DNA of 21,077 nucleotides, taken from positions 1 to 21,077 of IMG/VR virus record IMGVR_UViG_3300025860_000112; one strand, written 5' to 3'. Shown in pieces: positions 1,301 through 10,896 of the stretch. Position 1 is the first letter of the stretch. Each line of letters starts with the position of its first letter. A model generated the notes under the pieces. The model searched no databases, was not told the DNA's origin, and saw only the letters and a program-made list of their open reading frames with translations. The position numbers were made by a program, and so were the translations under genes. This DNA comes from a virus.

Positions 1301-1927
1301 TTATCCCGCCAGTTGGTTTCGGTTCGTGGTTATAGCTTGCGCTTCTTCTACAGTTTCCCAACGCCGCTGGTTAAGCCATGTGGTCGCGTGAGGAATGTAT
1401 TTCTTATCTTTACCATGCGTGGTGCGCTTAAATCTACAGGTAGCTAAAAATAAATCCCTAACCCCTATATCCCTATCTGTTACTCGCTTCCATGCTTCAT
1501 AGGCTTTTGCTTTTGAACCATCGTTGCGCGGGTATGCGTTCCACCATTCCAAAAAGTCAGGCGCATATTTGTCACCCCTCTTTGTATTATTAGGTTGTTT
1601 AACTCTGATAGTATTGGGGGGCATATTTGTCACCCCCACCCCCGCAATATTGTCACCCCTGCTTAATTTAAGAGTATAGGTATTGCTAGTCTGTTTGCCG
1701 TCATCATTATACCTTGCCATCACTTCAACCATACCATCCGCCACAAGACTCTTAATTGCCCTCTGTATGGTACGCTCATCACAGCCGCAAAGCTCTGATA
1801 GCTTCTTGTATGAAGGGTAACTGGAAAAGTTCTCATCCGCGTAGTTGGCTATCATAATCAATACCAACTTGGCGGTTGGGTTCTGGCACTTGGCTTTAGC
1901 CGCCAGCCCTACTGCATCCCAACTCAT
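1301..1927 (-). CDS. winged-helix phage replication initiator-like protein
   Basis: 208 residues. The N-terminal ~90 residues form a helix-turn-helix/winged-helix domain: a DnaD/replication-protein-O type start (MSWDAVGLAAKAK), then a recognition region around LCGCDERTIQRAIKSL and a wing around GMVEVMARYNDDGK. The C-terminal part (FLEWWNAYPR, then HATTWLNQRRWE) is the segment typical of phage replication proteins that load helicase. Its position directly ahead of the primase-helicase supports an origin-binding or helicase-loading role. I chose ATG 1927 because AAAGGAG lies 6 bases upstream. An in-frame ATG at 1945 would add six residues; it sits right behind a TAACCACGA sequence resembling the leader repeated elsewhere in the window. 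The DNA target is not visible. Confidence 0.85.
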   Translation of the reverse strand: MSWDAVGLAAKAKCQNPTAKLVLIMIANYADENFSSYPSYKKLSELCGCDERTIQRAIKSLVADGMVEVMARYNDDGKQTSNTYTLKLSRGDNIAGVGVTNMPPNTIRVKQPNNTKRGDKYAPDFLEWWNAYPRNDGSKAKAYEAWKRVTDRDIGVRDLFLATCRFKRTTHGKDKKYIPHATTWLNQRRWETVEEAQAITTNRNQLAG

Positions 1928-1957
1928 GTTAGCTCCTTTGGTCATTCGTGGTTAAAC

Positions 1958-2061: not shown

Positions 2062-2081
2062 AAACCACGGAGACTAAAATG
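2062..2081 (+). promoter_or_regulatory. repeated translation leader, copy 1
   Basis: AAACCACGGAGACTAAAATG. GGAG is the ribosome site, 6 bases before ATG 2079. The flanking AAACCAC and ACC/ACT bases are conserved at other starts in the window although the ribosome would not need them. This decides the start of the gene at 2079 over an earlier in-frame ATG at 2058. Confidence 0.75.
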
Positions 2082-2312
2082 ATAACCGCAAGCACCAAAT
2101 TGGAAAAGCTGTTAAGAGAAGGCAATTACTTAAAAGCCTTATCACTAGCCTCTAAATTTCCAAGGCTAGGCGAACACAAAGAACAGATACGTTTAGGGCA
2201 TGAAGCCAACCAGCATCCCAGCTTTTACAGGCAGATTGGCAAGAACCCTGACCAGCTAGTAGCTGATGGCATTGCCGCGTTAAAAGACAGATACGCATAC
2301 CTAACAAACTAA
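2079..2312 (+). CDS. conserved hypothetical early protein (77 aa)
   Basis: Small, mostly helical, basic protein starting MITASTKLEKLL. It has a motif-like middle (SKFPRLGEHKEQI) and a second conserved-looking stretch (HPSFYRQIGKNPDQLV, then GIAALKDRY). I recall similar short proteins in alphaproteobacterial phages, but no function is known to me. It is the first gene behind promoter copy 1. The start at 2079 is set by the leader GGAGACTAAA; the earlier ATG at 2058 would translate the leader itself and lacks a ribosome site. The stop at 2310-2312 shares two bases with the leader of the next gene. Confidence 0.8.
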   Translation: MITASTKLEKLLREGNYLKALSLASKFPRLGEHKEQIRLGHEANQHPSFYRQIGKNPDQLVADGIAALKDRYAYLTN

Positions 2313-2329
2313 ACCACGGAGAAAAAATG
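2311..2329 (+). promoter_or_regulatory. repeated translation leader, copy 2
   Basis: AAACCACGGAGAAAAAATG, fused to the TAA stop of the preceding gene. GGAG lies 5 bases before ATG 2327. A clean copy ahead of a 26-codon frame is the main reason to believe that tiny gene. Confidence 0.65.
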
Positions 2330-2407
2330 ATGTTAGCTTTTAAAATTACAATGGGCGTATTAGGGATGGCAATGTTCTGTTCACTCCCGATACTATTCTT
2401 TCTTTAA
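2327..2407 (+). CDS. tiny single-span membrane peptide (26 aa)
   Basis: A 26-residue frame, MMLAFKITMGVLGMAMFC..., ending at TAA 2405-2407. Apart from one lysine near the start it is entirely hydrophobic and would form one membrane helix. It has its own copy of the repeated leader and lies in line between two genes with the same leader, which supports real translation. Its last two stop-codon bases begin the leader of the next gene. It resembles no family I know. A regulatory or membrane-modulating micropeptide would be a guess. Confidence 0.6.
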   Translation: MMLAFKITMGVLGMAMFCSLPILFFL

Positions 2408-2425
2408 ACCACGGAGACCAAAATG
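2406..2425 (+). promoter_or_regulatory. repeated translation leader, copy 3
   Basis: AAACCACGGAGACCAAAATG, the consensus form of the leader, overlapping the TAA of the 26-codon gene. GGAG is 6 bases before ATG 2423. It is identical over 20 bases to the copy at 8678-8697. Confidence 0.75.
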
Positions 2426-3556
2426 ATTGAAGATAATGAACCAAATTTAGCGAATACTTTTTTAGCGGCACTGGCTAATCCAGAGCGAGGCATACACCTT
2501 TACAAAAAAGGAAGATACACAGAAGGTAATCGCAGACTATTGCAACGCACCATGATTGATGCACAGCGATTTGTGCTTGATAAAAAACTGGTTGAGCATT
2601 GCGCTTATTCCAGCTTAGACACTCCCCGCAACTTAGTTAAGATGGCTCAACGAGCAATACCGCCATTTGAAACCATGTTTATTGAATGGAATGAATATCA
2701 CAGAGTTGACGTATTGAGAGAGGCTTACAAACAAACATATCCAGACAAGTTAATTGATGAAGAAAACAAAGCACCATTAAAGGTTGGGTATTTGATACAA
2801 CGGCTAAATGGACACTTTATGTTTACGGCGGTAGTTGAGTTTATTGACGATAAAACTGGCAAGACAGGCGTTTGGCCTAATGGCACTAGCTTCTATTTTA
2901 GTAATGACATTGAAATAGATTATGAGTGGACATTAAGCCCTGAGTTGGACAATGACCTTGATAAGCCTGACCCAAGGGAATTAAGTGTGATACAAAAACA
3001 GGCAATGCGGCATTTAATATTCCCTTTTTATTATGATGAAAACGCAAGTGATTACGCAAATGAACTTGATTGGTTTTCCAAACGAGTGCTTGTTGCACAA
3101 TCACCGAACCTAAACACCACTGATGAAATGTGGCGCACAGGTTGGAGCAGAGATTGGATGGTTCGAAAAACCAAAAATGAACTTACAGCCATTGAGGGTG
3201 ATTTACGATTTTTAATTGTTGCCTTGGGGTTTTTGAATTATGACCATATCGTACTAGAGGACACCAAGCCCACCAAGAATGTAAAACACACTAGATTTGG
3301 GGGGCGGGTTCCAGAAAATGAATACCGTACTGTGTTTATTGATTTGCCAAAACGATGCCAAACTTTACGGCGCGGCATCCTTACAGGCACAGGTAGCCCG
3401 AAAAAAGAACATTGGCGGCGTGGACATTGGAGAGCAACCCAATGGGATAAGTTAGGCAATGTAACAAAGCACACTTGGATTGCGCCTATGAAGTGTGGTA
3501 ATCCAGAGCTAGGCCGCATTGAACATGATTACGTTTTGCGCGGCAAGAAAAGCTAA
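2423..3556 (+). CDS. hypothetical early phage protein (377 aa)
   Basis: The largest gene of the left plus-strand operon; I do not recognise a characterised family. It is soluble, with no signal peptide or membrane segment. The C-terminus (about 325-375) is rich in Arg/His/Trp: RRGHWRATQWDKLGN, then TWIAPMKCGNPELG and HDYVLRGKK. A similar RRGHWR...W..P..G...Y.V ending occurs in other phage and mobile-element proteins of unknown role and might bind nucleic acid or a metal. The leader at 2406 fixes the start. A stem-loop 30 bases past the stop probably ends the transcript. Confidence 0.85.
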   Translation: MIEDNEPNLANTFLAALANPERGIHLYKKGRYTEGNRRLLQRTMIDAQRFVLDKKLVEHCAYSSLDTPRNLVKMAQRAIPPFETMFIEWNEYHRVDVLREAYKQTYPDKLIDEENKAPLKVGYLIQRLNGHFMFTAVVEFIDDKTGKTGVWPNGTSFYFSNDIEIDYEWTLSPELDNDLDKPDPRELSVIQKQAMRHLIFPFYYDENASDYANELDWFSKRVLVAQSPNLNTTDEMWRTGWSRDWMVRKTKNELTAIEGDLRFLIVALGFLNYDHIVLEDTKPTKNVKHTRFGGRVPENEYRTVFIDLPKRCQTLRRGILTGTGSPKKEHWRRGHWRATQWDKLGNVTKHTWIAPMKCGNPELGRIEHDYVLRGKKS

Positions 3557-3586
3557 ATAGGGTTTACTCATTTCCCCTGTTTAGCG

Positions 3587-3630
3587 GGGCGGTTCCTTAC
3601 CGTGGTTGGTGGAGCCGCCCTTGTTCTTTG
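3587..3630 (+). terminator. candidate terminator after the left plus-strand operon
   Basis: GGGCGGTTCC (3587-3596) pairs with GGAGCCGCCC (3611-3620): ten pairs with one G-U wobble on the plus-strand RNA and a 14-base loop, followed by T-rich TTGTTCTTTG. On the minus strand the wobble becomes a C-A mismatch, so the hairpin is better suited to stop plus-strand transcription. It overlaps the 3' end of the convergent gene at 3597. A nearby CCCC/GGGG pair (3574-3577 with 3586-3589) could form an alternative fold. Confidence 0.5.
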
Positions 3631-3779
3631 TGGTCAGAACAATACCATGACCGTCCAAAATCAAACGAATAACAGGCTAGGTGTGAGCCACAAATTTTGC
3701 ACTCATGGTTTTTGTGTATTTTGGCTGTTGGCTTTTCGTACCTTGGCACTGTCTTTTTTCTGCTTTTCCATTTGTTCAT
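3597..3779 (-). CDS. small zinc-ribbon-like protein (60 aa)
   Basis: The C-terminal half holds C-K-I-C-G (CxxC), then W-Y-C-S-D-H (CxxH) about 20 residues later, a likely zinc-binding site. The N-terminal half is very basic (KWKSRKK, RYEKPTAKIHKNH), suggesting nucleic-acid binding. It overlaps the preceding gene by 77 bases if translation starts at ATG 3779, which has no good ribosome site. A GTG at 3749 would cut the overlap to 47 bases and still keep the whole cysteine region. It is the last gene of the minus-strand early cluster. No specific family is recognised. Confidence 0.6.
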   Translation of the reverse strand: MNKWKSRKKTVPRYEKPTAKIHKNHECKICGSHLACYSFDFGRSWYCSDHKEQGRLHQPR

Positions 3780-3867
3780 ATTCAGACTGTACCAAAACCT
3801 TCATTGCGGATATGCGAGATTTGAACCTGAGAACCAACGCTTCCCATTCTTTAGGACTGCGTTCCAT
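3703..3867 (-). CDS. short helical hypothetical protein (54 aa)
   Basis: This frame starts MERSPKEWEALVLRFKSRIS and ends in a charged, lysine- and glutamine-rich tail. It is almost entirely helical with no membrane segment. I recall similar short proteins (E-W-E-A-L-V-L-R-F-K) in marine phages, function unknown. An AAGAGA-like ribosome site precedes the ATG. It overlaps the upstream membrane-protein gene by 17 bases and the downstream zinc-ribbon gene by up to 77, consistent with coupled translation. Two long overlapping frames in different registers make this the less certain of the pair in coding assignment. Confidence 0.6.
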   Translation of the reverse strand: MERSPKEWEALVLRFKSRISAMKVLVQSEYEQMEKQKKDSAKVRKANSQNTQKP

Positions 3868-4189
3868 TCTCTTTTACTCTTGTGAATGCGGTGGCTCCCA
3901 TAAACGCCGCGACAATGCCCATATTCGCTACGACATAGGTTGATAGCAAAGATGTAACCAATGGCACTCTCTGGTCGCCCACAAGCGGAGAAACCACCAA
4001 AGCAATACAAACTGCACTAGACACAACACTGACCCAACAGATTAACCGTTGTTGGTCTTGCATTTTATCTGCGTTCTCCAGCTTAATCATGCGTTCTTCT
4101 CTAGCTATTTCTTCATCAGTCACAATGCCGTCACCATCTAAATCATGTTGCTCGTATCTTGAGCCTTTCTGTAATTTTTTCTGTGTCAT
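3851..4189 (-). CDS. EF-hand-containing two-span membrane protein (112 aa)
   Basis: Near the N-terminus lies a canonical EF-hand loop, D-L-D-G-D-G-I-V-T-D-E-E (D.D.DG.I..EE), which would bind calcium. A charged helix follows (EIAREERMIKLENADKM), then two hydrophobic segments (CWVSVVSSAVCIALVVSPLV and a second ending GIVAAFMGATAF). I recall comparable EF-hand plus two-helix proteins in marine phages. A holin or membrane-sensor role is possible but unproven. The start at 4189 follows GGTGA, and the gene overlaps the stop of the upstream one by 4 bases (ATGA). A longer upstream frame exists but lacks a ribosome site and only shadows the upstream gene. Confidence 0.8.
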   Translation of the reverse strand: MTQKKLQKGSRYEQHDLDGDGIVTDEEIAREERMIKLENADKMQDQQRLICWVSVVSSAVCIALVVSPLVGDQRVPLVTSLLSTYVVANMGIVAAFMGATAFTRVKENGTQS

Positions 4190-4668
4190 TTTACAATCAC
4201 CGTAAATAATCCCACGAATAAACCAAATGCTAAAACTACTACAACACCCGCCATAAGCCACTGTTTTAAGTTTTCTTCAAATTCCCTATCTTCTTTTAAC
4301 TTCTTACGTTTAGCAGCGGCAGCGGCTTCCTTGGCCTCTTGGATACGCTTGGCTCTCTCAGCTATGATGCCAGCCCAAGTGCCATGACCAAACCTCATGT
4401 CAACCATAGTTGCTACTTCTTGTAGCTGTTCAGCGGCGATTTTTGCATCAATCATTTCTTTAGCGACTGTATCAACGCCAAACTGGTCACCCAAACCAGT
4501 GCCAGACTTCTTGGCTCTAGCTTGTTGAACTTGTTTCTCGCCAGCGAACAGGTCATCAATTGAACTCGCAATGTCACGAATATCGTTTGCTGTCTGTATA
4601 TTTGATTTTATAAATTCCACTGATTTTTGAACCAGCGCAATGCCTGTAAGCACTTCAGCAACGACCAT
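4186..4668 (-). CDS. C-tail-anchored coiled-coil protein (160 aa)
   Basis: Helical protein: the N-terminal 60 residues are amphipathic (VLTGIALVQKSVEFIKS...), the middle (about 100-135) is a highly charged Ala/Lys/Glu coiled coil (RAKRIQEAKEAAAAAKRKK), and the C-terminus is one strong membrane helix (WLMAGVVVVLAFGLFVGLF). It would sit on the inner membrane with its bulk in the cytoplasm or virion. I recall unnamed homologues in marine phages. It is translated with the EF-hand protein (ATGA overlap), so the two may form one membrane complex. AAGGT precedes the start. Confidence 0.75.
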   Translation of the reverse strand: MVVAEVLTGIALVQKSVEFIKSNIQTANDIRDIASSIDDLFAGEKQVQQARAKKSGTGLGDQFGVDTVAKEMIDAKIAAEQLQEVATMVDMRFGHGTWAGIIAERAKRIQEAKEAAAAAKRKKLKEDREFEENLKQWLMAGVVVVLAFGLFVGLFTVIVK

Positions 4669-4723
4669 CAGATTACCTTTTTTGATAACCCTGATGGGCT
4701 GGTGAGTGTCTTTTGACTACTGC

Positions 4724-4752
4724 ATTATATCAGTAAACCTCTGTTATGACTA
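4724..4752 (-). promoter_or_regulatory. candidate internal promoter on the minus strand
   Basis: A perfect TATAAT (4729-4724) lies 17 bases from TAGTCA (4752-4747, 4 of 6 matches), at the 3' end of the DUF1064 gene and about 56 bases upstream of ATG 4668. It could give the membrane-protein genes their own transcript. It is based on sequence match only. Confidence 0.35.
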
Positions 4753-5074
4753 CAGGCGGGTCATAAGTCTCAAGAATCTTTTTCTTTATTTTATAGACAG
4801 GAGTTCGTGTTGCCACGCTTTTCACATCTTCCAAAACCTGTTTGCCGTGATGTGTATATTGGAAATCCCCCACATAATGCCCAATCTTTATTCCATTCAC
4901 CATCAGCGGGATTCTAGGTTGCAGCCGCAAGTTATCAATCTTGCCCTGCGATTCAAGCAACGCCAATATCTTATAACGCTCCGCTTCTTTTTTAGAATGG
5001 AACGTGATGCCATCAACAACAGTTTTAATGGCTCCGTATTTGTTCTTGGAAATCGTTCGCCGTGACCGCGCCAT
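4730..5074 (-). CDS. DUF1064 family endonuclease-like protein
   Basis: 114 residues matching the DUF1064 pattern: KYGAIKTVVDGITFHSKKEAERY at the N-terminus, then a GKI-x-LRLQPRIPL stretch, YVGDFQY and an LEDVKS motif, ending KKKILETY..V.ITEVY. The family has a restriction-endonuclease-like PD-(D/E)XK fold. Here the candidate catalytic residues are the Glu of KKEAERY, the Asp of GDF and the E-D-V-K set. In phages it usually sits among early or replication genes and is thought to cut or resolve DNA intermediates; the exact substrate is not known to me. It overlaps the upstream Cro-like gene by 50 bases. Confidence 0.88.
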   Translation of the reverse strand: MARSRRTISKNKYGAIKTVVDGITFHSKKEAERYKILALLESQGKIDNLRLQPRIPLMVNGIKIGHYVGDFQYTHHGKQVLEDVKSVATRTPVYKIKKKILETYDPPVVITEVY

Positions 5075-5225
5075 TTGTTGCTTCCATTATCTTGCTAATT
5101 GCTTCGTGTCGCGGATACCTTTCTCCGCTAATCCATTTAAGAACCCCGCCCTTGGAGAATCCAACAGCATCCGCAAAGTCATCAGGCTTGATGCCCTTCA
5201 TTTTCAAATATGATTTTAAGGTCAT
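5025..5225 (-). CDS. Cro/CI-type HTH regulator (66 aa)
   Basis: Small single-domain XRE-family DNA-binding protein. The turn is seen in DDFADAVGFSKGGVLKWISGE, the pattern of a Cro-like helix 2-turn-helix 3. The length is typical of Cro, with no oligomerisation or autocleavage domain. It is the first gene of the minus-strand early cluster and lies divergent from the recombination operon. Between them sits an inverted repeat at 5259-5273 that is the obvious candidate operator. It probably represses its own promoter and the divergent one. TATGAT at about 5230-5235 on the minus strand could be its -10 box. Confidence 0.88.
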   Translation of the reverse strand: MTLKSYLKMKGIKPDDFADAVGFSKGGVLKWISGERYPRHEAISKIMEATNGAVTANDFQEQIRSH

Positions 5226-5258
5226 GCCGTATCATATCTTAACAGTGTTTTTTAATCT

Positions 5259-5273
5259 ACCCCATTTTGGGGT
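5259..5273. promoter_or_regulatory. inverted-repeat operator candidate
   Basis: ACCCCA-TTT-TGGGGT: a perfect 6+6 dyad with a 3-base centre, in the 104-base gap between the divergent Cro-like gene and the exonuclease gene. Size and symmetry fit a dimeric XRE repressor site, and there is no T-tract on either side to make it a terminator. It is distinct in sequence from the palindromes at 2015, 8629 and 10577. Confidence 0.6.
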
Positions 5274-5329
5274 TGTGTGTTGCTGTATGTTGTTGTAGTG
5301 TATTTTACATAACAAGATTGGAAATGACC

Positions 5330-6106
5330 ATGAAAAACGTATTTGAACACCACGGACTAGGGCATTTATCCGCCAGTACCATTAACCAATGGATACAACA
5401 GCCAGCCCTATGTTTGCTAAAGATTGGCGGGTTTAGCGATGGGGAAGCTGGCGCGGCGGCGTGGCGTGGCTCTGGGGTTGACAGGGCTGTTACCAAAGCG
5501 GCATTTAACCCAGACATGAAAGTTGATGACCTCATTAACTTGGCGCACAAAGTATTTGATGACAGCCATACCAAATCCATAAATGAGCATAACCCTGAGA
5601 AGGTAGCCAAGGAACGCAAAGCCATTGTTGACTATGTGAAACAAGGCGCACAGTTCTACAGGGGGCTAGGTGAACAGCCTGAATCAGAACAAGGCAAGGT
5701 AGTTGTGCGGATTGGTGATATACAAACGCCTTTCGTTGGATACTACGACTTGCTCTACAAAGACAAAGTAAGAGACACTAAAACAGTTGGGCGGCAAGTG
5801 TCAGAGCTTGCACAAACAGCCAGCCGACAGGCATCAATATATGCGCTTGGCACAGGTTGTGAGCCTTGGATTGATTACGTCACCACCAAAGAAGTCAGAG
5901 CCTACAGGGTGGAGAGAGTTGACTACTGGCTTCGTCAAGTTGAGTTGGCAAGCAAATCATTGGAGCGTGTACTATCTCACTCTAATGATATTGTAGAATG
6001 TTGCCAGCTTGTTTACCCAGACCTAGACCACTGGATGTGGAGCGATACCATGAAACGTATTGCCAAAGACATCTGGCAGATGGAGAACCACGATGCAATC
6101 AGATGA
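5330..6106 (+). CDS. RecB-like PD-(D/E)XK exonuclease
   Basis: 258 residues; phage recombination exonuclease of the PDDEXK_1/RecB-nuclease superfamily. It would resect double-strand ends to feed the adjacent annealing protein, as lambda Exo does for Beta. Visible motifs: N-terminal LSASTINQWIQQPAL (family signature), D140 in VGYYDLLY, D149-T-K151 as the catalytic DxK, and Q167-A-S-I-Y171, the QxxxY motif of RecB-type nucleases. I place the start at ATG 5330 (GGA 7 bases upstream); ATG 5324 in frame is an alternative. The frame is open further upstream to 5267, but that would cover the promoter region. It is first of a tightly overlapped recombination operon. Confidence 0.9.
   Translation: MKNVFEHHGLGHLSASTINQWIQQPALCLLKIGGFSDGEAGAAAWRGSGVDRAVTKAAFNPDMKVDDLINLAHKVFDDSHTKSINEHNPEKVAKERKAIVDYVKQGAQFYRGLGEQPESEQGKVVVRIGDIQTPFVGYYDLLYKDKVRDTKTVGRQVSELAQTASRQASIYALGTGCEPWIDYVTTKEVRAYRVERVDYWLRQVELASKSLERVLSHSNDIVECCQLVYPDLDHWMWSDTMKRIAKDIWQMENHDAIR
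6082..6095 (+). promoter_or_regulatory. rearranged leader (GGAG before ACCACG) at the ERF start
   Basis: GGAGAACCACGATG: here GGAG precedes AACCACG, and the ACG abuts ATG 6093. The order is reversed relative to the AAACCACGGAG leaders. The same form occurs at 10621. It sets the ERF start inside the end of the exonuclease gene. Confidence 0.55.
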
Positions 6107-6806
6107 CATTTCAACATTACTGACCGCTTTATATAAAGCGAGAGATAATTTTAAGACCTTGGAAAAAAATGGGAGCAACAGTTTTTTCAAAACCAAAGAT
6201 GGGAAGCCCCATAAATTTTCTACGTTGGATGATATTTTTTATGCTTGCACCAATTCATTGCGAGATGAAAAGCTAGAAATATTTTACACAACCAAAGTTG
6301 TAGGTGATTTGAATTACCTATGCACTACCTTGTACCACATAGAAAGCAAGCAATGGTTGCGGAGCGAGACAGTAATCGGTGGCTCAAATAGCAAGCCCCA
6401 AGATATTGGCTCTGGCATTACATACATGAGGCGTTACCACATTCAAGCGATGCTAAACCTTGAGGCAGATTTTGAGGATGACGGTAATGTTGCTAGTGGT
6501 AGAAATTCCACTGAGTTATCACCGCCCCGCAAAACAGTTGAGATTAAAGAAATTGACTTTGATTATTCTGGCGCACCCTACCGCATATTTGATAACCAAA
6601 ACAGAGTACACCAGACCTTCACTGAGATAGAGACATGGGGTGTGCGTATGAAAAATGATGCCAATAAAAATAACGCTAACACCAAAGAAGTAAACCGTGT
6701 GCGTGGCGATGTGAAAGATTCACAGGATATGACAGAGAACGCCAAAGCAAAGATGCTTGCTTCAATTGATAGATTAGGGATGACAAATGAAAACCAAGCA
6801 AGTTAA
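6093..6806 (+). CDS. erf: ERF-family single-strand annealing protein
   Basis: 237 residues. The ERF superfamily core is plain: N-terminal helical start, FSTLDDIFYACTNSLRDEKL, a sheet region ending CTTLYHIESKQWLRSE, then Q103-D-I-G-S-G-I-T-Y-M-R-R-Y115 and LEADFEDDGN, the hallmark block of P22 Erf relatives. It anneals complementary single strands in phage recombination and genome circularisation. The C-terminal ~100 residues are divergent and polar, typical for this family. It partners the exonuclease, whose last 14 bases it overlaps. The start at 6093 follows GGAGAACCACG; an earlier in-frame ATG at 6060 lies deep in the exonuclease gene with no ribosome site. Confidence 0.93.
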   Translation: MQSDDISTLLTALYKARDNFKTLEKNGSNSFFKTKDGKPHKFSTLDDIFYACTNSLRDEKLEIFYTTKVVGDLNYLCTTLYHIESKQWLRSETVIGGSNSKPQDIGSGITYMRRYHIQAMLNLEADFEDDGNVASGRNSTELSPPRKTVEIKEIDFDYSGAPYRIFDNQNRVHQTFTEIETWGVRMKNDANKNNANTKEVNRVRGDVKDSQDMTENAKAKMLASIDRLGMTNENQAS

Positions 6807-7044
6807 AAAATTGTGGCAAGGCAAGTTTGTCTCAATACGCGACTATGAAATTAAATCCGCCATTCAACGTGGCGGGTTAAGATTGTTTCACAATAAAGAT
6901 ATTATGGAGCTATCTATTGATGAACTAAAAGCATTAAAGCCAACAGGCCAGATGCACCAATCCAAGTTCGGTGGTCAGTATCAATTAGTTGATATAACGT
7001 GGAAACCACTGGCACATGATCCAAGACAACAGGAGTTGATATAA
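6787..7044 (+). CDS. hypothetical protein in recombination operon (85 aa)
   Basis: Basic N-terminus (MKTKQVKKLWQGKFVSIRDYEI), an amphipathic middle (KDIMELSIDELKALKP), and a polar C-terminus (QSKFGGQYQLVDITWKP). It is soluble with no recognised domain. It overlaps the ERF gene by 20 bases and its stop overlaps the next start (TAATG), so it is translationally locked between the annealing protein and the SSB-tip protein. A recombination accessory role follows from position only. Confidence 0.75.
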   Translation: MKTKQVKKLWQGKFVSIRDYEIKSAIQRGGLRLFHNKDIMELSIDELKALKPTGQMHQSKFGGQYQLVDITWKPLAHDPRQQELI

Positions 7045-7454
7045 TGGACAACAAATACGAAAACTCTGGAAATCTATTCCCCGCCAACAACACTGAGATT
7101 GTCAGGCAGGGAAAGGTTGATATTGAAGGCTTAGACCATGAGCTTGTCATTGCCAAAACCGTTACACCAAAGAAAGGCATGACCATATTCCAAGTCTACA
7201 AGCAAGTTGGTGTTCTATACATCAATGATGACAAAACAGAAAAGAAGGATTGGGATATTTCTGGTGAGTTAGAAATCAACGGTGAAAAGCAAATGGCTTG
7301 GGGCAGAAAGAAAACTGATAAAAACGGCAATGACTACACTAGGATGGGGTTTGCGCCATCCAAGCCTAAAGAAGATGAGCCGTTCATCTCGCCTGATGAC
7401 TTCAATAACAAATCTTCTAAGCAAGATGATTTAGACGATGATATTCCGTTTTAG
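7044..7454 (+). CDS. SSB-tipped protein, candidate phage single-strand binding protein
   Basis: 136 residues. It ends in D-D-L-D-D-D-I-P-F, nearly identical to the acidic tip by which bacterial SSB recruits partners (DDDIPF). The body starts NSGNLFPANN and has a beta-rich run (KDWDISGELEINGEKQMAWGRKK), reminiscent of short phage proteins with an NSG.LF start and of DUF736-like proteins. It does not show the usual SSB OB-fold signature. With the exonuclease and ERF protein it would complete a recombination set. AGGAG precedes the ATG, which overlaps the upstream stop by one base. The tip is seen; the OB-fold is not demonstrated. Confidence 0.75.
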   Translation: MDNKYENSGNLFPANNTEIVRQGKVDIEGLDHELVIAKTVTPKKGMTIFQVYKQVGVLYINDDKTEKKDWDISGELEINGEKQMAWGRKKTDKNGNDYTRMGFAPSKPKEDEPFISPDDFNNKSSKQDDLDDDIPF

Positions 7455-7456
7455 TC

Positions 7457-7792
7457 ATGGCTAAACGAAACAGAATCAAACCCAAGAGATACGCTAATAA
7501 AGACCACCTTTCATGGGTTCATCAATTTGATTGTTGCTTAAAGGTCAACGGCGATTGCTTGGGCGTAATACAAGCCCATCACTTGCTGCGACCTTGGGAT
7601 GGCATTAGGGGCATGGGGCTGAAGGCCACAGACCGCAACCTTATCCCCCTCTGCCAGCGGCATCACATAATGCTTCACAAGGCTGGAAACGAAATCAAAT
7701 ATTTTGAGGAAATTACTGGCAACGGTGACTTTGGTAAAATCATTGCTCAACAGTATTGGGAAAAAAGCCCTCATAATGATGACGAGGAATAA
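7457..7792 (+). CDS. HNH-like nuclease (DUF968-like)
   Basis: 111 residues with the arrangement of small phage HNH/His-Me nucleases: C-C-L-K-V-N-G-D-C (candidate metal ligands), VIQAHHLLRPW, GMGLKATDRNLIPLCQRHHIMLHKAGNE. The AHH, the D-R-N-L-I-P-L-C and the RHH...H form a betabeta-alpha-metal-like site. DUF968/YbcO-type proteins sit in recombination modules of lambdoid phages and are thought to be structure-specific nucleases. The start lies 2 bases after the upstream stop without an obvious ribosome site, so it probably depends on coupling. Confidence 0.8.
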   Translation: MAKRNRIKPKRYANKDHLSWVHQFDCCLKVNGDCLGVIQAHHLLRPWDGIRGMGLKATDRNLIPLCQRHHIMLHKAGNEIKYFEEITGNGDFGKIIAQQYWEKSPHNDDEE

Positions 7793-8116
7793 ATGATAAC
7801 AGATGATGATGTAGAGAAGGCTATTGACTACCTACGAGATAGCGCAACAAATGCCGCCCAATCCAGAGCCAACAGGATTTATATGGATGAGTTCCGTAAA
7901 TCACTAAAGGCTTTGATTATGAGAGAATACAACCATCTGCCAGTTGGCGCACAGGAGCGTGAGGCATATGCAGATGACAGATACCTAAAACATCTTGAGG
8001 CCATGAAGATTGCGATAGCGCAGGATGAGCAAAACAGGTTCTTACGGATAGCGGCAGAGGCAAAGATTGAAGCATGGCGTAGCTTTTCCGCTAATCATAG
8101 GGCGGTCAAGATATGA
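7793..8116 (+). CDS. conserved phage hypothetical, recombination module (107 aa)
   Basis: Entirely helical and charged. It starts DDDVEKAIDYLRDSATNAAQSRANRIYMDEFRKSLKA, then PVGAQEREAYADDRYLKHLE, and ends AAEAKIEAWRSFSANHRAVK. I recognise this as a family recurring next to recombination genes in proteobacterial phages, but know no function. GAGG lies 5 bases before the start, which follows the upstream stop directly. The stop overlaps the next ATG by 4 bases. Confidence 0.82.
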   Translation: MITDDDVEKAIDYLRDSATNAAQSRANRIYMDEFRKSLKALIMREYNHLPVGAQEREAYADDRYLKHLEAMKIAIAQDEQNRFLRIAAEAKIEAWRSFSANHRAVKI

Positions 8117-8313
8117 CAAAAGATGAAAGCCTAAACAACATTAGATTACTAAGCATAGTACAAGCCGCCAAATATATGGGGGTCAGCCCTATGACCTTCC
8201 GCAAGATGGTAGAACGTGGCGATGCTCCCAAGCCTATACAAATAACGGATAGGCGTGTAGTCTGGGATAAGAAGCTGTTGGATAGTTTCATTGACAACCT
8301 CAATGGTTTCTAA
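8113..8313 (+). CDS. AlpA/excisionase-like HTH protein (66 aa)
   Basis: MerR/HTH_17-type DNA-binding protein: LLSIVQAAKYMGVSPMTFRKMVERGDAPKPIQITDRRVVWDKKLLDSFI is the standard AlpA/excisionase pattern (helix-turn-helix, then a P-x-P wing and the R-V-W strand). Such proteins act as excisionases or transcriptional activators. No integrase is visible in the window, so a regulatory role is at least as likely. It ends the recombination operon; the first ATG overlaps the previous stop (ATGA), and a terminator follows 17 bases after its stop. Confidence 0.82.
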   Translation: MTKDESLNNIRLLSIVQAAKYMGVSPMTFRKMVERGDAPKPIQITDRRVVWDKKLLDSFIDNLNGF

Positions 8314-8329
8314 TTTCCTCCCTGAACTT

Positions 8330-8356
8330 GGCCTCTCATCTGAGAGGTCATTTTTT
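8330..8356 (+). terminator. rho-independent terminator of the recombination operon
   Basis: GGCCTCTC (8330-8337), loop ATCT, GAGAGGTC (8342-8349): eight pairs including one G-U, followed by A and six Ts (8351-8356). It lies 17 bases after the AlpA-like gene and only 9 bases before the next start codon. Confidence 0.85.
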
Positions 8357-8364
8357 ACAGTGCT

Positions 8365-8607
8365 ATGAGAAAATTTAGATACAGACCCGCTATAGTGAAC
8401 AACAATCCAGTAGTGCGCTTTCTTTTTGAGGAGATGCACCGTCAGCGTTGTTGCCAAATGGATTTATCAGAGAAGGTTGGCTTGCATCGCGATACCCTGC
8501 GAAACTGGCGGACAAAACACGTTCCACGAATTGATGATATTGAAGCGGCATTGAATTGTCTTGGATATACATTGAAAGCAGTCAAAATAAAAAATAATGA
8601 AAAATAA
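8365..8607 (+). CDS. XRE-like HTH regulator (80 aa)
   Basis: Single HTH domain: NPVVRFLFEEMHRQRCCQMDLSEKVGLHRDTLRNWRTKHVPRIDDIEAALNCLGYTLKAV. Helix 2-turn-helix 3 lies in DLSEKVGLHRDTLRNWR, and the run RIDDIEAALNCLGY is characteristic of a phage regulator family I have met often. The start follows a terminator T-tract by 9 bases with no ribosome site, so either read-through or a promoter inside the preceding gene must feed it, and translation may be nearly leaderless. Promoter/operator copy 2 lies 21 bases after its stop, making it a candidate for the protein that binds that palindrome. Confidence 0.82.
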   Translation: MRKFRYRPAIVNNNPVVRFLFEEMHRQRCCQMDLSEKVGLHRDTLRNWRTKHVPRIDDIEAALNCLGYTLKAVKIKNNEK

Positions 8608-8628
8608 TCCCTTTTTATTTGTTTTATG

Positions 8629-8662
8629 TGTTGACATTAGTAAACAGGTGCGCCATTATAAT
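8629..8662 (+). promoter_or_regulatory. promoter with embedded palindromic operator, copy 2
   Basis: TTGACA (8631-8636) and TATAAT (8657-8662) with the same 20-base spacing as copy 1. The palindrome TGTTGAC-ATTA-GTAAACA (8629-8646) is identical to copy 1, and the spacers differ at only three positions. The shared AT-rich upstream and leader downstream show that the whole control cassette was duplicated. Confidence 0.65.
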
Positions 8663-8677
8663 TAGGTAAGGTAAACA

Positions 8678-8697
8678 AAACCACGGAGACCAAAATG
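8678..8697 (+). promoter_or_regulatory. repeated translation leader, copy 4
   Basis: AAACCACGGAGACCAAAATG, identical over all 20 bases to the copy at 2406-2425. It sits 15 bases after the -10 box of promoter copy 2, so it forms nearly the whole 5' leader of that mRNA. Confidence 0.75.
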
Positions 8698-8895
8698 ATT
8701 AAGTTAAAGAAAATTTTAGAGCGTACACAGTTTAAAGGCGCAGTATGGGTTGTTGTTGGCGCGGAACACATACGGATTCACCAGATTGGCAATCATTGGT
8801 TGGCTGATGAGTACCGTGATGGCAAGTATGTTTCTAACATTGCCAAAGGTGGCGCAAGCCGTGCCTTTTTGCTTAAAAGATTAGCGGCGGCTTAA
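8695..8895 (+). CDS. hypothetical early protein (66 aa)
   Basis: A short basic protein, MIKLKKILERTQFKGAVWVVVG, then IRIHQIGNHWLADEYRDGKYVSNIAKGG, ending SRAFLLKRLAAA. It is probably a small beta sheet with terminal helices, not a membrane protein. First gene after promoter copy 2, with the consensus leader. No family recognised. Confidence 0.75.
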   Translation: MIKLKKILERTQFKGAVWVVVGAEHIRIHQIGNHWLADEYRDGKYVSNIAKGGASRAFLLKRLAAA

Positions 8896-8905
8896 CAGCC
8901 CCGCC

Positions 8906-8925
8906 AAACCACGGAGACCACGATG
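8906..8925 (+). promoter_or_regulatory. repeated translation leader, composite copy 5
   Basis: AAACCACGGAGACCACGATG. It contains both forms of the leader: AAACCACGGAGACC at the left, and GGAG followed by ACCACG abutting the ATG at the right (compare 6082 and 10621). The ACCACG unit therefore flanks GAG as a direct repeat. Confidence 0.7.
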
Positions 8926-9249
8926 ACCAGAACAATAGAAATAGCAAACACAATTAAGCACCAGATTGTAGCCCAATCCCCAGCGGCGTTAATGAGTTAT
9001 GCGGCGCGGAACTTTGTTGCCCTTAACGAGACAGACAAAAGACACGGTGGCTTGCAGTTTAAGACAAGCGGATACAAGCACAAGGGGTTGGTTGTGATTA
9101 ACCTGATGTTCAATGACACCTACACCATTGAGACAGTAAAGATACGCAAGGGTGAGGTTAAGGTGTGTGATTCATATGATTATGTTTATGCAGACCAGTT
9201 GATTGAGGTTTTAGACCACATGGTAGAGGGCGTACATTATGACCGTTAA
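8923..9249 (+). CDS. hypothetical early protein (108 aa)
   Basis: Mixed helix and sheet. N-terminal helix (EIANTIKHQIVAQSPAALMSYAARNFVAL), then a beta-rich region (GGLQFKTSGYKHKGLVVINLMFNDTYTIETVKIRKGEVKVCDSYD) and a C-terminal helix (YADQLIEVLDHMVEG). The proportions look like a small single-domain binding protein; I know no family. It has the composite leader at 8906 and overlaps the following metallopeptidase-like gene by 11 bases, so their products may work together. Confidence 0.75.
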   Translation: MTRTIEIANTIKHQIVAQSPAALMSYAARNFVALNETDKRHGGLQFKTSGYKHKGLVVINLMFNDTYTIETVKIRKGEVKVCDSYDYVYADQLIEVLDHMVEGVHYDR

Positions 9250-9622
9250 ACGTATTGAGATGGCTCTGCACGTTATGGAACTTTGTGCAACCCACAAGAT
9301 TAAGGTGACATACCAGAGCCTTGAGGATTTTGAGCCTCGCTATTGGGCAAGGCGGCATCCGCGTGAAATACAAATCCGCCCAACCAAGAACACTGGATAC
9401 TATGTATCTGCCCTGCATGAGATTGGGCATATCGTAGGAGACCGCCAGATGCCCCGCAACAGGCTATTGACCCAAGAGTTGTACGCTTGGATATGGGCAA
9501 GAGAGAACGCCCTTGTGTGGACTGAGACAGCAGAGCGTATTATGCGCCGCGCTATGGATAGCTACAGATGGGAACAAAAACACAAAGATATATGGAATAG
9601 GAGATTTAGCAATGTCGTGTGA
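9239..9622 (+). CDS. ImmA/IrrE-like zinc metallopeptidase candidate (127 aa)
   Basis: It contains H60-E-I-G-H64 in the context VSALHEIGHIVG, a clear HExxH zincin motif. A downstream E80-L-Y-A-W (ExxAW) could supply the third ligand, the spacing and context seen in ImmA/IrrE (DUF955) peptidases. The N-terminus is basic and mixed. ImmA-type enzymes cleave XRE repressors to derepress mobile elements. In this window several small XRE proteins could be targets, which is inference. It is shorter than typical two-domain IrrE proteins and carries no HTH of its own. It overlaps the preceding gene by 11 bases and the following one by 11. Confidence 0.75.
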   Translation: MTVKRIEMALHVMELCATHKIKVTYQSLEDFEPRYWARRHPREIQIRPTKNTGYYVSALHEIGHIVGDRQMPRNRLLTQELYAWIWARENALVWTETAERIMRRAMDSYRWEQKHKDIWNRRFSNVV

Positions 9623-9836
9623 TAACCCTGCATTTTATTTTGTTGAGCGTGGATACAGCTACAAAGAAATAGAAACTAGATGCGGCTCTACAATCACAAA
9701 GCGAGGCCATGTTGATACAGCTTTTTGTGATGAGTGCGCTAATAACAAACAAAAGATGGCAGAGCATGAAAACAGATTGCGTATTTCTGAAGAAGATAAC
9801 GCTTGGCTTGCATCTGCTGGATGGGGGGAAATGTAA
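9612..9836 (+). CDS. small cysteine-containing protein (74 aa)
   Basis: MSCDNPAFYFVERGYSYKEIETRCGS..., then HVDTAFCDECANNKQKMAEHENRL and a C-terminal EEDNAWLASAGWGEM. C3, C24, and the C-D-E-C pair could bind zinc, suggesting a treble-clef or ribbon-like mini-domain. AGGAG lies 8 bases before the start at 9612; the in-frame sequence upstream of it only shadows the metallopeptidase gene. No family recognised. Confidence 0.65.
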   Translation: MSCDNPAFYFVERGYSYKEIETRCGSTITKRGHVDTAFCDECANNKQKMAEHENRLRISEEDNAWLASAGWGEM

Positions 9837-9837
9837 A

Positions 9838-10572
9838 ATGAACACGCTTGGAATGAAAGCACTGCAACAAGTGAAAGATAACATGATGAAGCCAATCTAT
9901 GAAAAGCGGCGTCATCTAGGTTGCGAATGGTGCGGAACCACATTTTATGGATATTACAGCAAAGAGAAGCAATCCATGTTTAATTCACCATGCTTTATTG
10001 AGGAAGGGGTATCTGTTTTCATCCCGCCATGCCCGAATGAAGATTGCGGGATGGAGAGTTTTGGGGTCTACGATGCCAAATCAGCCCTGCATCATTACAA
10101 CAAACGCAAAGAAAAAGAACGCAAGAAGGCAGAGCGTAAAGCAAAAAAAGATGCTGAACCTGTCAAGGTGAGCAAGAAACTAACCTATCCAAACAAACAA
10201 GCCTATCATGATAGGATTGAACACCTTGCCGCCAACCCAGATGATTTAACCAAATATGAGATTATGTCATCCTACTTTCTTGACAAAATATTCTGGAAAA
10301 AATTTGGCAAGGGATGCCACACACTGCAATCAAGACACTTCACAATTAAAAAACAGTTATGGGATGGAACTTACAGGAGCAATTCTGGCAAAACACGGAT
10401 GGGCGGGTTTACGCCTTACTTTAAAGTGACTAACAATCAAACAGGGAAAGAGAGAGAGGTCGGCAAAGAGAGCGTTAGGTTTGAGATAGAGCTAAAACAG
10501 AAATACGGAACCAATAGACGCAATGACCCTAAAAGAAACTTTGGATTGCCAAATAGTAGGGGATATAGATAA
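9838..10572 (+). CDS. hypothetical protein with N-terminal zinc-binding cysteines (244 aa)
   Basis: The N-terminal 80 residues contain C-E-W-C-G, then an isolated Cys, then P-C-P-N-E-D-C-G, a likely zinc knuckle or ribbon. A very basic coiled stretch follows (KRKEKERKKAERKAKK), then a mixed domain (YDRIEHL..., FWKKFGKGCHTLQSRHFTIKKQLWDGTY) and a C-terminal basic tail (NRRNDPKRNFG). This composition suggests nucleic-acid binding. The start at 9838 follows the upstream stop by 1 base, behind a G-rich run (GGGGGG) 9 bases away. Family and role unknown. Confidence 0.75.
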   Translation: MNTLGMKALQQVKDNMMKPIYEKRRHLGCEWCGTTFYGYYSKEKQSMFNSPCFIEEGVSVFIPPCPNEDCGMESFGVYDAKSALHHYNKRKEKERKKAERKAKKDAEPVKVSKKLTYPNKQAYHDRIEHLAANPDDLTKYEIMSSYFLDKIFWKKFGKGCHTLQSRHFTIKKQLWDGTYRSNSGKTRMGGFTPYFKVTNNQTGKEREVGKESVRFEIELKQKYGTNRRNDPKRNFGLPNSRGYR

Positions 10573-10574
10573 TA

Positions 10575-10606
10575 ACTGTTGACATTGGTAAACAGTATGT
10601 TATCTT
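10575..10606 (+). promoter_or_regulatory. promoter with palindromic operator, copy 3
   Basis: The palindrome extends to ACTGTTGAC-ATTG-GTAAACAGT (10575-10596) with 8 of 9 arm positions paired, the most symmetrical of the three copies. TTGACA is at 10579-10584; TATCTT at 10601-10606 is the best -10 (16-base spacing). The TATAAT box of copies 1 and 2 is not kept, so this promoter may be weaker or differently tuned. It is the reason to expect a separate transcript starting ahead of 10633. Confidence 0.55.
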
Positions 10607-10620
10607 TACTTAAACCATTA

Positions 10621-10635
10621 GGAGAAACCACGATG
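10621..10635 (+). promoter_or_regulatory. rearranged leader at 10633 start
   Basis: GGAGAAACCACGATG, the same order as at 6082: ribosome site, AAACCACG, then the start codon directly. ATG is followed by ACC, as at 8923 and 10871. Confidence 0.6.
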
Positions 10636-10896
10636 ACCAATATTTATATAGACCAAGGAATAGAGCAAGACGCTCAGAACGACATGAATATTATTTTAGA
10701 GTTGCGGACTAAAGTTGGCGACGCTATTCACCACGCTCAAAAATTACAATCAGCGGGGGCAATGGCTTACAATGACGATTTGCTTGTAAATGTTATTGAT
10801 AAGCTGGATGACATTCTTGCTGATGTAATTCAACCAGTTGAGACATTAGTAGAGGAAGGATTAAACCACCATGACCAAGCAAATAACGCCGCATGA
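10633..10896 (+). CDS. acidic helical hypothetical protein (87 aa)
   Basis: MTNIYIDQGIEQDAQNDMNIILELRTKVGDAIHHAQKLQ..., then NVIDKLDDILADVIQPVETLVEEGL. Strongly acidic, all helical, with heptad-like spacing, so a dimer or helical bundle is likely. Small acidic phage proteins like this are sometimes inhibitors or DNA mimics, but nothing in the sequence proves that. The first gene behind promoter copy 3; the start is set by GGAGAAACCACG. An earlier in-frame ATG at 10594 lies within the promoter. Confidence 0.7.
   Translation: MTNIYIDQGIEQDAQNDMNIILELRTKVGDAIHHAQKLQSAGAMAYNDDLLVNVIDKLDDILADVIQPVETLVEEGLNHHDQANNAA
10863..10873 (+). promoter_or_regulatory. degenerate leader at 10871 start
   Basis: AAACCACCATG followed by ACC, preceded by AAGGA at 10856. 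One base differs from the AAACCACG form. It lies inside the 3' end of the upstream gene, showing the motif tolerates overlap with coding sequence. Confidence 0.45.

Follow-up and report, generated by a model that had tools for sequence, protein, structure and literature searches.

The IMG/VR virus record IMGVR_UViG_3300025860_000112, a single stretch of 21,077 bases that we refer to as the window, carries a short leader repeated immediately before several gene starts, and it is likely that this leader signals translation starts specifically in phages and is not just an ordinary ribosome-binding site (RBS). The interpretation that we favour, with a probability of roughly 0.62, is a translation-initiation element of the start-associated (SAS) type, a class known in mycobacteriophages since 2011, that would serve small early or accessory genes. 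In this proposal the Shine-Dalgarno GGAG is preceded by an invariant (A)ACCAC, and the whole lies 6 nt 5' of the ATG.

Leader copies in the window and constraint on their flanks

The sequence AAACCACGGAGA occurs five times in the window, always on the plus strand and shortly 5' of a start codon, while the reversed pattern does not occur. Relative to AAACCACGGAGACC, the copies at 2406, 8678 and 8906 are exact, the copy at 2062 has one mismatch and the copy at 2311 has two. When up to three mismatches are allowed, the window contains nine matches, far more than its shuffled versions (1.09 ± 0.95, none with nine), and the five positions given for the leader in an earlier, sequence-only reading of this DNA proved exact. 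The first copy (AAACCACGGAGACT, 2062-2075) lies in the 5' untranslated region of a 77-aa gene (start codon 2079; PHROG 18237) and the fourth (AAACCACGGAGACC, 8678-8691) precedes a 66-aa gene (start codon 8695), both with a promoter upstream. The second (AAACCACGGAGAAA, 2311-2324) and third (AAACCACGGAGACC, 2406-2419) overlap the TAA of the preceding open reading frame (ORF), confirming the claim that two copies are built into a stop codon, and lead into a 26-aa hydrophobic micropeptide (start codon 2327) and a 377-aa gene (start codon 2423) respectively. The fifth (8906-8919), which is intercistronic and precedes a 108-aa gene (start codon 8923; PHROG 9437), consists of AAACCACGGAGACC then ACGATGACC; as had been claimed, its full sequence, AAACCACGGAGACCACGATGACC, holds both the canonical form and a rearranged one in which GGAG comes before the flank.

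Further plus-strand copies had been proposed, rearranged ones at 6082 and 10621 and a degenerate one at 10863, and these fared differently. At 10621-10632, GGAG-AAACCACG (that is, GGAGAAACCACGATG) lies directly 5' of the ATG at 10633, again with a promoter upstream, and since the orthologous gene in relatives has a canonical leader at the same place (G001:32318, G005:18714), we consider it a genuine variant. The possible copy at 6082-6092 (GGAG-AACCACG; GGAGAACCACGATG), before the erf start at 6093, is doubtful: it lies within the coding end of the preceding ORF (which finishes with MENHDAIR and a stop codon), recurs in close relatives only, and may be fortuitous. The degenerate AAACCACC at 10863-10870, before the ATG at 10871 of a gene for a helix-turn-helix (HTH) protein, is by itself at chance level.

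All copies fall in the plus-strand half of the window (2.0-12.7 kb), which carries short, mainly non-structural genes, among them a homolog of the Erf annealing protein (6093-6806). The minus strand holds replication genes (primase-helicase-like) at the left end and tail genes (tape measure-like) at the right end; the tail genes have no leader, in agreement with the earlier remark that late minus-strand genes do not carry it. The window's cultured relatives are remote, and its tape measure protein has only partial matches, at ~27-35% identity, among characterised phages. The 26-aa micropeptide (MMLAFKITMGVLGMAMFCSLPILFFL, window 2327-2407), which has its own leader, has an end that is conserved in a distant second marine group (L104, G007, G008).

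Flanks were surveyed in 12 genomes or records, comprising 10 that are marine-type or metagenomic and two T4-like phages of Rhizobium and Sinorhizobium (P10VF and phiM9). In 12 of 12, ACCAC is the commonest 5-mer 5' of GGAG at starts, with no close rival, and it is present at 0 of 432 GGAG starts in 62 unrelated viral control loci fetched with permuted patterns. Overall, the start codon lies 4-10 nt 3' of copies at an RBS; this distance is 6 nt for 41 of the 46 marine copies, and in Rhizobium phages it is usually 7-8 nt. Exact cores outnumber those with one mismatch by 36 to 3 in the first marine group, 10 to 1 in the second and 39 to 14 in P10VF and phiM9 taken together, where chance predicts ~15 mismatched forms per exact core. 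Five genes that are orthologous between P10VF and phiM9 (28-62% amino-acid identity) have the exact core in both phages while the promoter spacer has diverged; in further orthologs of this pair the leader is wholly absent. Because the flank is nearly all-or-none, fixed in its spacing, kept in diverged orthologs and common to unrelated phages, the leader is under constraint beyond the GGAG. To this extent the earlier suggestion of a second function is supported, while the part of it that invoked extended pairing with 16S rRNA is not; the other roles it named, mRNA stability, an RNA-binding protein site or pairing with a small RNA, would look alike in sequence.

Distribution among phages and hosts

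The sequence-only reading had named absence of the motif outside this one genome as evidence against itself; instead the motif recurs both in relatives and in unrelated phages, the latter a feature not found in that reading. Among relatives, a genome of 44.9 kb has 11 copies of ACCACGGAG with an ATG close behind, one of 43.6 kb has 7 and one of 43.7 kb has 6. Rhizobium phages P10VF and RL38J1 have 20 such copies apiece, and Sinorhizobium phage phiM9 and Rhizobium phage RHph_N34 have 18 apiece; the backwards pattern is found once or not at all in these phage genomes. The motif is also present in the second marine group, whose promoter differs (TTGACATATGAAAACA), and in four copies on G013, a 16-kb contig of another lineage; three copies on each of two other contigs (G014, G017) are suggestive only. 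The real pattern retrieved 34 viral stretches, compared to 49 and 13 for two patterns with permuted flanks, and the density of additional core copies in the retrieved stretches was 16 per 100 kb with the real motif versus 4.9 and 2.0 with the permuted controls. Given how few additional core copies the permuted-pattern loci hold, the word is repeated in particular genomes and is not widespread among viruses at large. The marine and Rhizobium phage groups have essentially no recognisable proteins in common, so shared descent of genes cannot account for the shared word, and either convergence or transfer of the leader only is needed.

Host genomes contain little of this signal. Across 96 alphaproteobacterial genomes (0.6-6.5 Mb), there were 69 motif matches compared to 33 for the reversed pattern, a weak enrichment, and a search of 84,980 genomes with the long form gave 11 isolated hits, which come from various phyla and lack the promoter; mimicry of a host-gene leader was rejected on these grounds. 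We also set aside T4-like phages of enterobacteria and Aeromonas, which gave single weak matches that are not repeated within those genomes. Isolated leader-like matches at starts, not genome-wide, were seen before motA of Aeromonas phage B614 (TAAACAAAACCACGGAG; L233) and, in two copies, in Ochrobactrum phage OH (L234). A literature search for the leader sequence itself matched 83 papers, and those among the matches listed were all in unrelated fields. It is conceivable, although we put this forward tentatively and with the odds against it, that several unrelated phage families, one or more of them infecting Alphaproteobacteria, converged on the exact RNA word ACCACGGAG, a signal hardly used by host genes, and that a shared host component or phage factors of like specificity use it to tell phage from host mRNA.

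Promoters, upstream arms and gene exchange at leaders

Three of the window leaders (2062, 8678 and 10621) lie 48-50 nt from the start of an imperfect palindrome, TGTTGAC-N4-GTAAACA, which contains the -35 box TTGACA of a sigma-70-like promoter; this shared upstream unit had not been described in the sequence-only reading. The promoters, all on the plus strand, span 2015-2047 (TGTTGACATTAGTAAACA; palindrome at 2015-2032, overlapping the -35 box, with the -10 box near 2040-2047), 8629-8661 (TGTTGACATTAGTAAACA again; palindrome at 8629-8646, -10 box near 8654-8661) and 10577-10606 (TGTTGACATTGGTAAACA; palindrome at 10577-10594). Across relatives the arms of the palindrome are invariant and its centre is variable, and 23 of the 26 listed sites in the window and its marine relatives, which are not independent of each other because the window and G004 are near-identical, have a leader no more than 90 nt downstream. 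Because the right arm sits in the promoter spacer, where a sigma-70 promoter has no need of it, a phage operator is the likely role of the palindrome, and the gene at 10871 encodes an HTH protein. As judged from the -10 box, transcription should start ~10 nt 5' of ACCAC. The remaining leader copies are intercistronic and lack a promoter, some of them overlapping a stop codon, and because of these copies we prefer a role in translation over one in transcription. On the other side of the promoter at 2015, a divergent minus-strand gene opens with TTAACCACGAATGACCAAAGGAGCTAACATG (window 1927-1955), apparently a partial or decayed leader; the partial AACCACGAATGACC at this start, near 1945, is likewise new relative to the earlier reading.

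In the Rhizobium-type phages, an arm such as GTTTCCGTGGTTTT that is able to pair with the leader is found upstream of it at 27 of 73 promoter-linked sites compared to 1 of 14 others. This arm lies mostly in the promoter spacer, with predicted pairing of up to -25.7 kcal/mol (z to -10 relative to shuffled upstream sequence), and in P10VF the 9-mer TTTCCGTGG occurs solely at such promoters (4 of 4). Loci with the arm include L254-L269 (P10VF, phiM9), L279-L311 (RHph_N34, RL38J1), L146 and L150. In read-through RNA the leader is predicted to be buried, with an unpaired probability of 0.00-0.03 at the best sites, while RNA started locally would be without the arm. The T4 genes e, soc and 49 have RBS-sequestering hairpins together with an internal late promoter. 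The Rhizobium-type arm, which in silico pairs with the leader only in read-through RNA, resembles this arrangement and could form an RBS switch like that of gene e, a DNA-level inverted repeat being a possible alternative. The resemblance does not extend to the window and the marine phages, where no such arm was found (mean z about +0.4).

Genes have been swapped with leaders as the joints. Between two relatives, G002 and G003, swaps at leaders are seen at G002:1769/2023 versus G003:4160, at G002:2239 versus G003:4376, and at G002:30936/31124 versus G003:32676/32933, where one gene has been replaced precisely between two leaders. The promoter is identical in these two genomes, and G002 has one extra gene between it and a common MRHTAKK gene, the joint being the leader. 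Another swap relates window 8680 to L154:4193, the gene at window 8695 being preceded in L154 by the other type of promoter copy. Across G002, G003, L148, L154 and L158, small early genes move as cassettes whose joints are the leaders, and behind one promoter none to two genes precede the conserved 108-aa gene. The number of alignment ends near leaders is 88 compared to 13.2 ± 5.8 for random positions, in pairs that are not independent, or 1.73 per leader compared to 0.65 per other start.

This enrichment and the exact swaps are what would be expected if the leader were mainly a recombination joint, kept identical by short-homology exchange of small early genes and without a function beyond GGAG. 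The phage also encodes an Erf-type annealing protein, and similar repeat-mediated gain and loss of genes is found in cluster O mycobacteriophages (PMC4351075). However, discordant junctions are frequent at leaderless starts too: the same gene had a different upstream sequence in 12 of 32 pairs at leaders and in 20 of 83 at other starts, a modest difference. For this reason recombination was rejected as the sole explanation, and we treat gene exchange as a by-product or secondary benefit rather than the main function. A recombination joint would also leave unexplained the fixed 6-nt spacing and the presence of the same core in Rhizobium T4-like phages that have no genes in common with the marine ones, and we regard it as rather unlikely. 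A different DNA-level account, in which the leader is a double-stranded site for a phage repressor that halts transcription at gene starts, draws on the stoperators of cluster A mycobacteriophages, which have been contrasted with SAS (PMC3203893) and are likewise many short asymmetric sites oriented with transcription. The leader is asymmetric, oriented with transcription and partly intergenic, and the window encodes HTH-like proteins, such as the one at 10871. While stoperators regulate transcription, the present sites are not placed independently of the Shine-Dalgarno and start codon: they fall precisely on GGAG, and their distance to the ATG is fixed. The promoter-linked copies, moreover, already have a palindrome of their own to which an HTH dimer could bind, which makes a repressor site quite improbable.

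At the RNA level, the leader could be an ordinary strong RBS whose A/C-rich, unstructured context was selected for accessibility alone and recently duplicated with the promoter. The GGAG of window leaders is indeed predicted to be unpaired with a probability of 0.73, compared to 0.64 with shuffled flanks and 0.48 at other GGAG starts. Accessibility predicts a soft preference, though, and not one exact 5-mer nearly without one-mismatch forms, nor a signal that 96 alphaproteobacterial genomes hardly use while a single 45-kb phage has 11 copies; we find an explanation by structure only to be weak and an ordinary RBS unlikely. The earlier proposal that the flank pairs with 16S rRNA beyond the anti-Shine-Dalgarno fared worse. 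The 16S rRNA used is that of an alphaproteobacterium, which may not be the window's host; this rRNA contains two 7-nt complements to the leader (AAACCAC/GTGGTTT and CACGGAG/CTCCGTG), but chance alone would give ~0.7 of them. At -13.5 kcal/mol the best duplex is no stronger than the average for shuffled flanks (-13.4 ± 1.5), and pairing with the 3' tail is weaker than for shuffled leaders (-6.6 versus -8.2), so extended pairing was rejected and appears highly improbable. A CsrA/Rsm-regulated leader, with its ANGGA core, was rejected as well, with CsrA homologs in 0 of 11 phage records and in 8 of 58 genomes of the presumed host group, the Alphaproteobacteria. No known RNA family was matched in Rfam at gathering cut-offs. 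DUF3310 (SaV-like) has been proposed to act in SAS translation in Adephagia (PMC11373665); a search for it gave no hit, and its positive control likewise gave none.

If the leader is instead a SAS-type initiation element, it would be placed either near the 5' end of the transcript behind the TGTTGAC-N4-GTAAACA promoter-operator or alone between the genes of an operon, and would most likely act on RNA, where the initiating ribosome or an RNA-binding partner acting in trans would recognise its invariant extension. Besides the ribosome, ACCAC might be recognised by an RNA-binding protein or small RNA of the host, or by a phage factor not so far noticed. The outcome would be strong, coordinated translation of the leader genes, probably early in infection, and identical cassette beginnings would allow genes to be swapped at the leader with their expression signals still working. 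Several points weigh against this interpretation. Related Roseobacter and Pelagibacter phage isolates are without the motif, which is thus not essential for phages of such hosts. The predicted gain in GGAG accessibility over shuffled flanks is modest in marine phages and absent in P10VF, and a candidate binding protein looked for in the phages was not found. Within the marine group, moreover, leader copying in gene exchange could alone keep the copies identical.

Relation to start-associated elements of other phages

The SAS of cluster K mycobacteriophages has the consensus GGGATAGGAGCCC (PMC3203893, PMC11373665, PMC12699233), and in its extended form (ESAS) there is a SigA-like promoter that carries an inverted repeat with 17-bp arms (PMC11373665); a role of cluster K SAS in expression control is still without functional proof (PMC12699233). 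Like SAS, the leader is a short (13-14 nt), near-identical repeat at the RBS of many non-structural genes, has a Shine-Dalgarno core with conservation beyond anti-Shine-Dalgarno pairing, and is asymmetric, gene-oriented and outside the structural genes; as with ESAS, a subset stands behind a sigma-70-like promoter with an imperfect inverted repeat. In both systems the preceding stop codon lies inside some copies, and in both the role in gene expression is putative. On the other hand, the window sequence is AACCACGGAGA, not GGGATAGGAGCCC, and there is no shared descent with cluster K. The extension here is 5' of GGAG and does not lengthen anti-Shine-Dalgarno pairing, the palindrome, with arms of 7 bp around a 4-bp centre, is short and overlaps the -35 box, and the phages themselves are unrelated, are not known as mycobacterial and have a sequence that is common to unrelated phage families. 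Microbacterium cluster EF phages have a SAS-like motif, GGGAAAGGACCCC, with ten conserved motifs at the RBS position and a conserved element upstream (PMC7302621); the linkage of RBS-position motifs to an upstream element is similar, but the sequence and host phylum are different and sharing with unrelated phages is not reported there. As far as its sequence features indicate, the present system is arranged like SAS and ESAS in every layout feature tested, although neither its sequence nor its descent makes it a member; its novelty lies in the sequence, in the phage groups and in the occurrence of one identical word in unrelated phage families.

Since two unrelated groups carry this identical word and cultured phages of Rhizobium and Sinorhizobium are among them, SAS-type function becomes testable in a tractable host. 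The outcome would reveal either that the initiating ribosome of these hosts has an unrecognised sequence preference or that a new factor acts in translation. The leader also offers a working design for exchangeable gene cassettes, to which the Rhizobium phages add a possible RNA switch.

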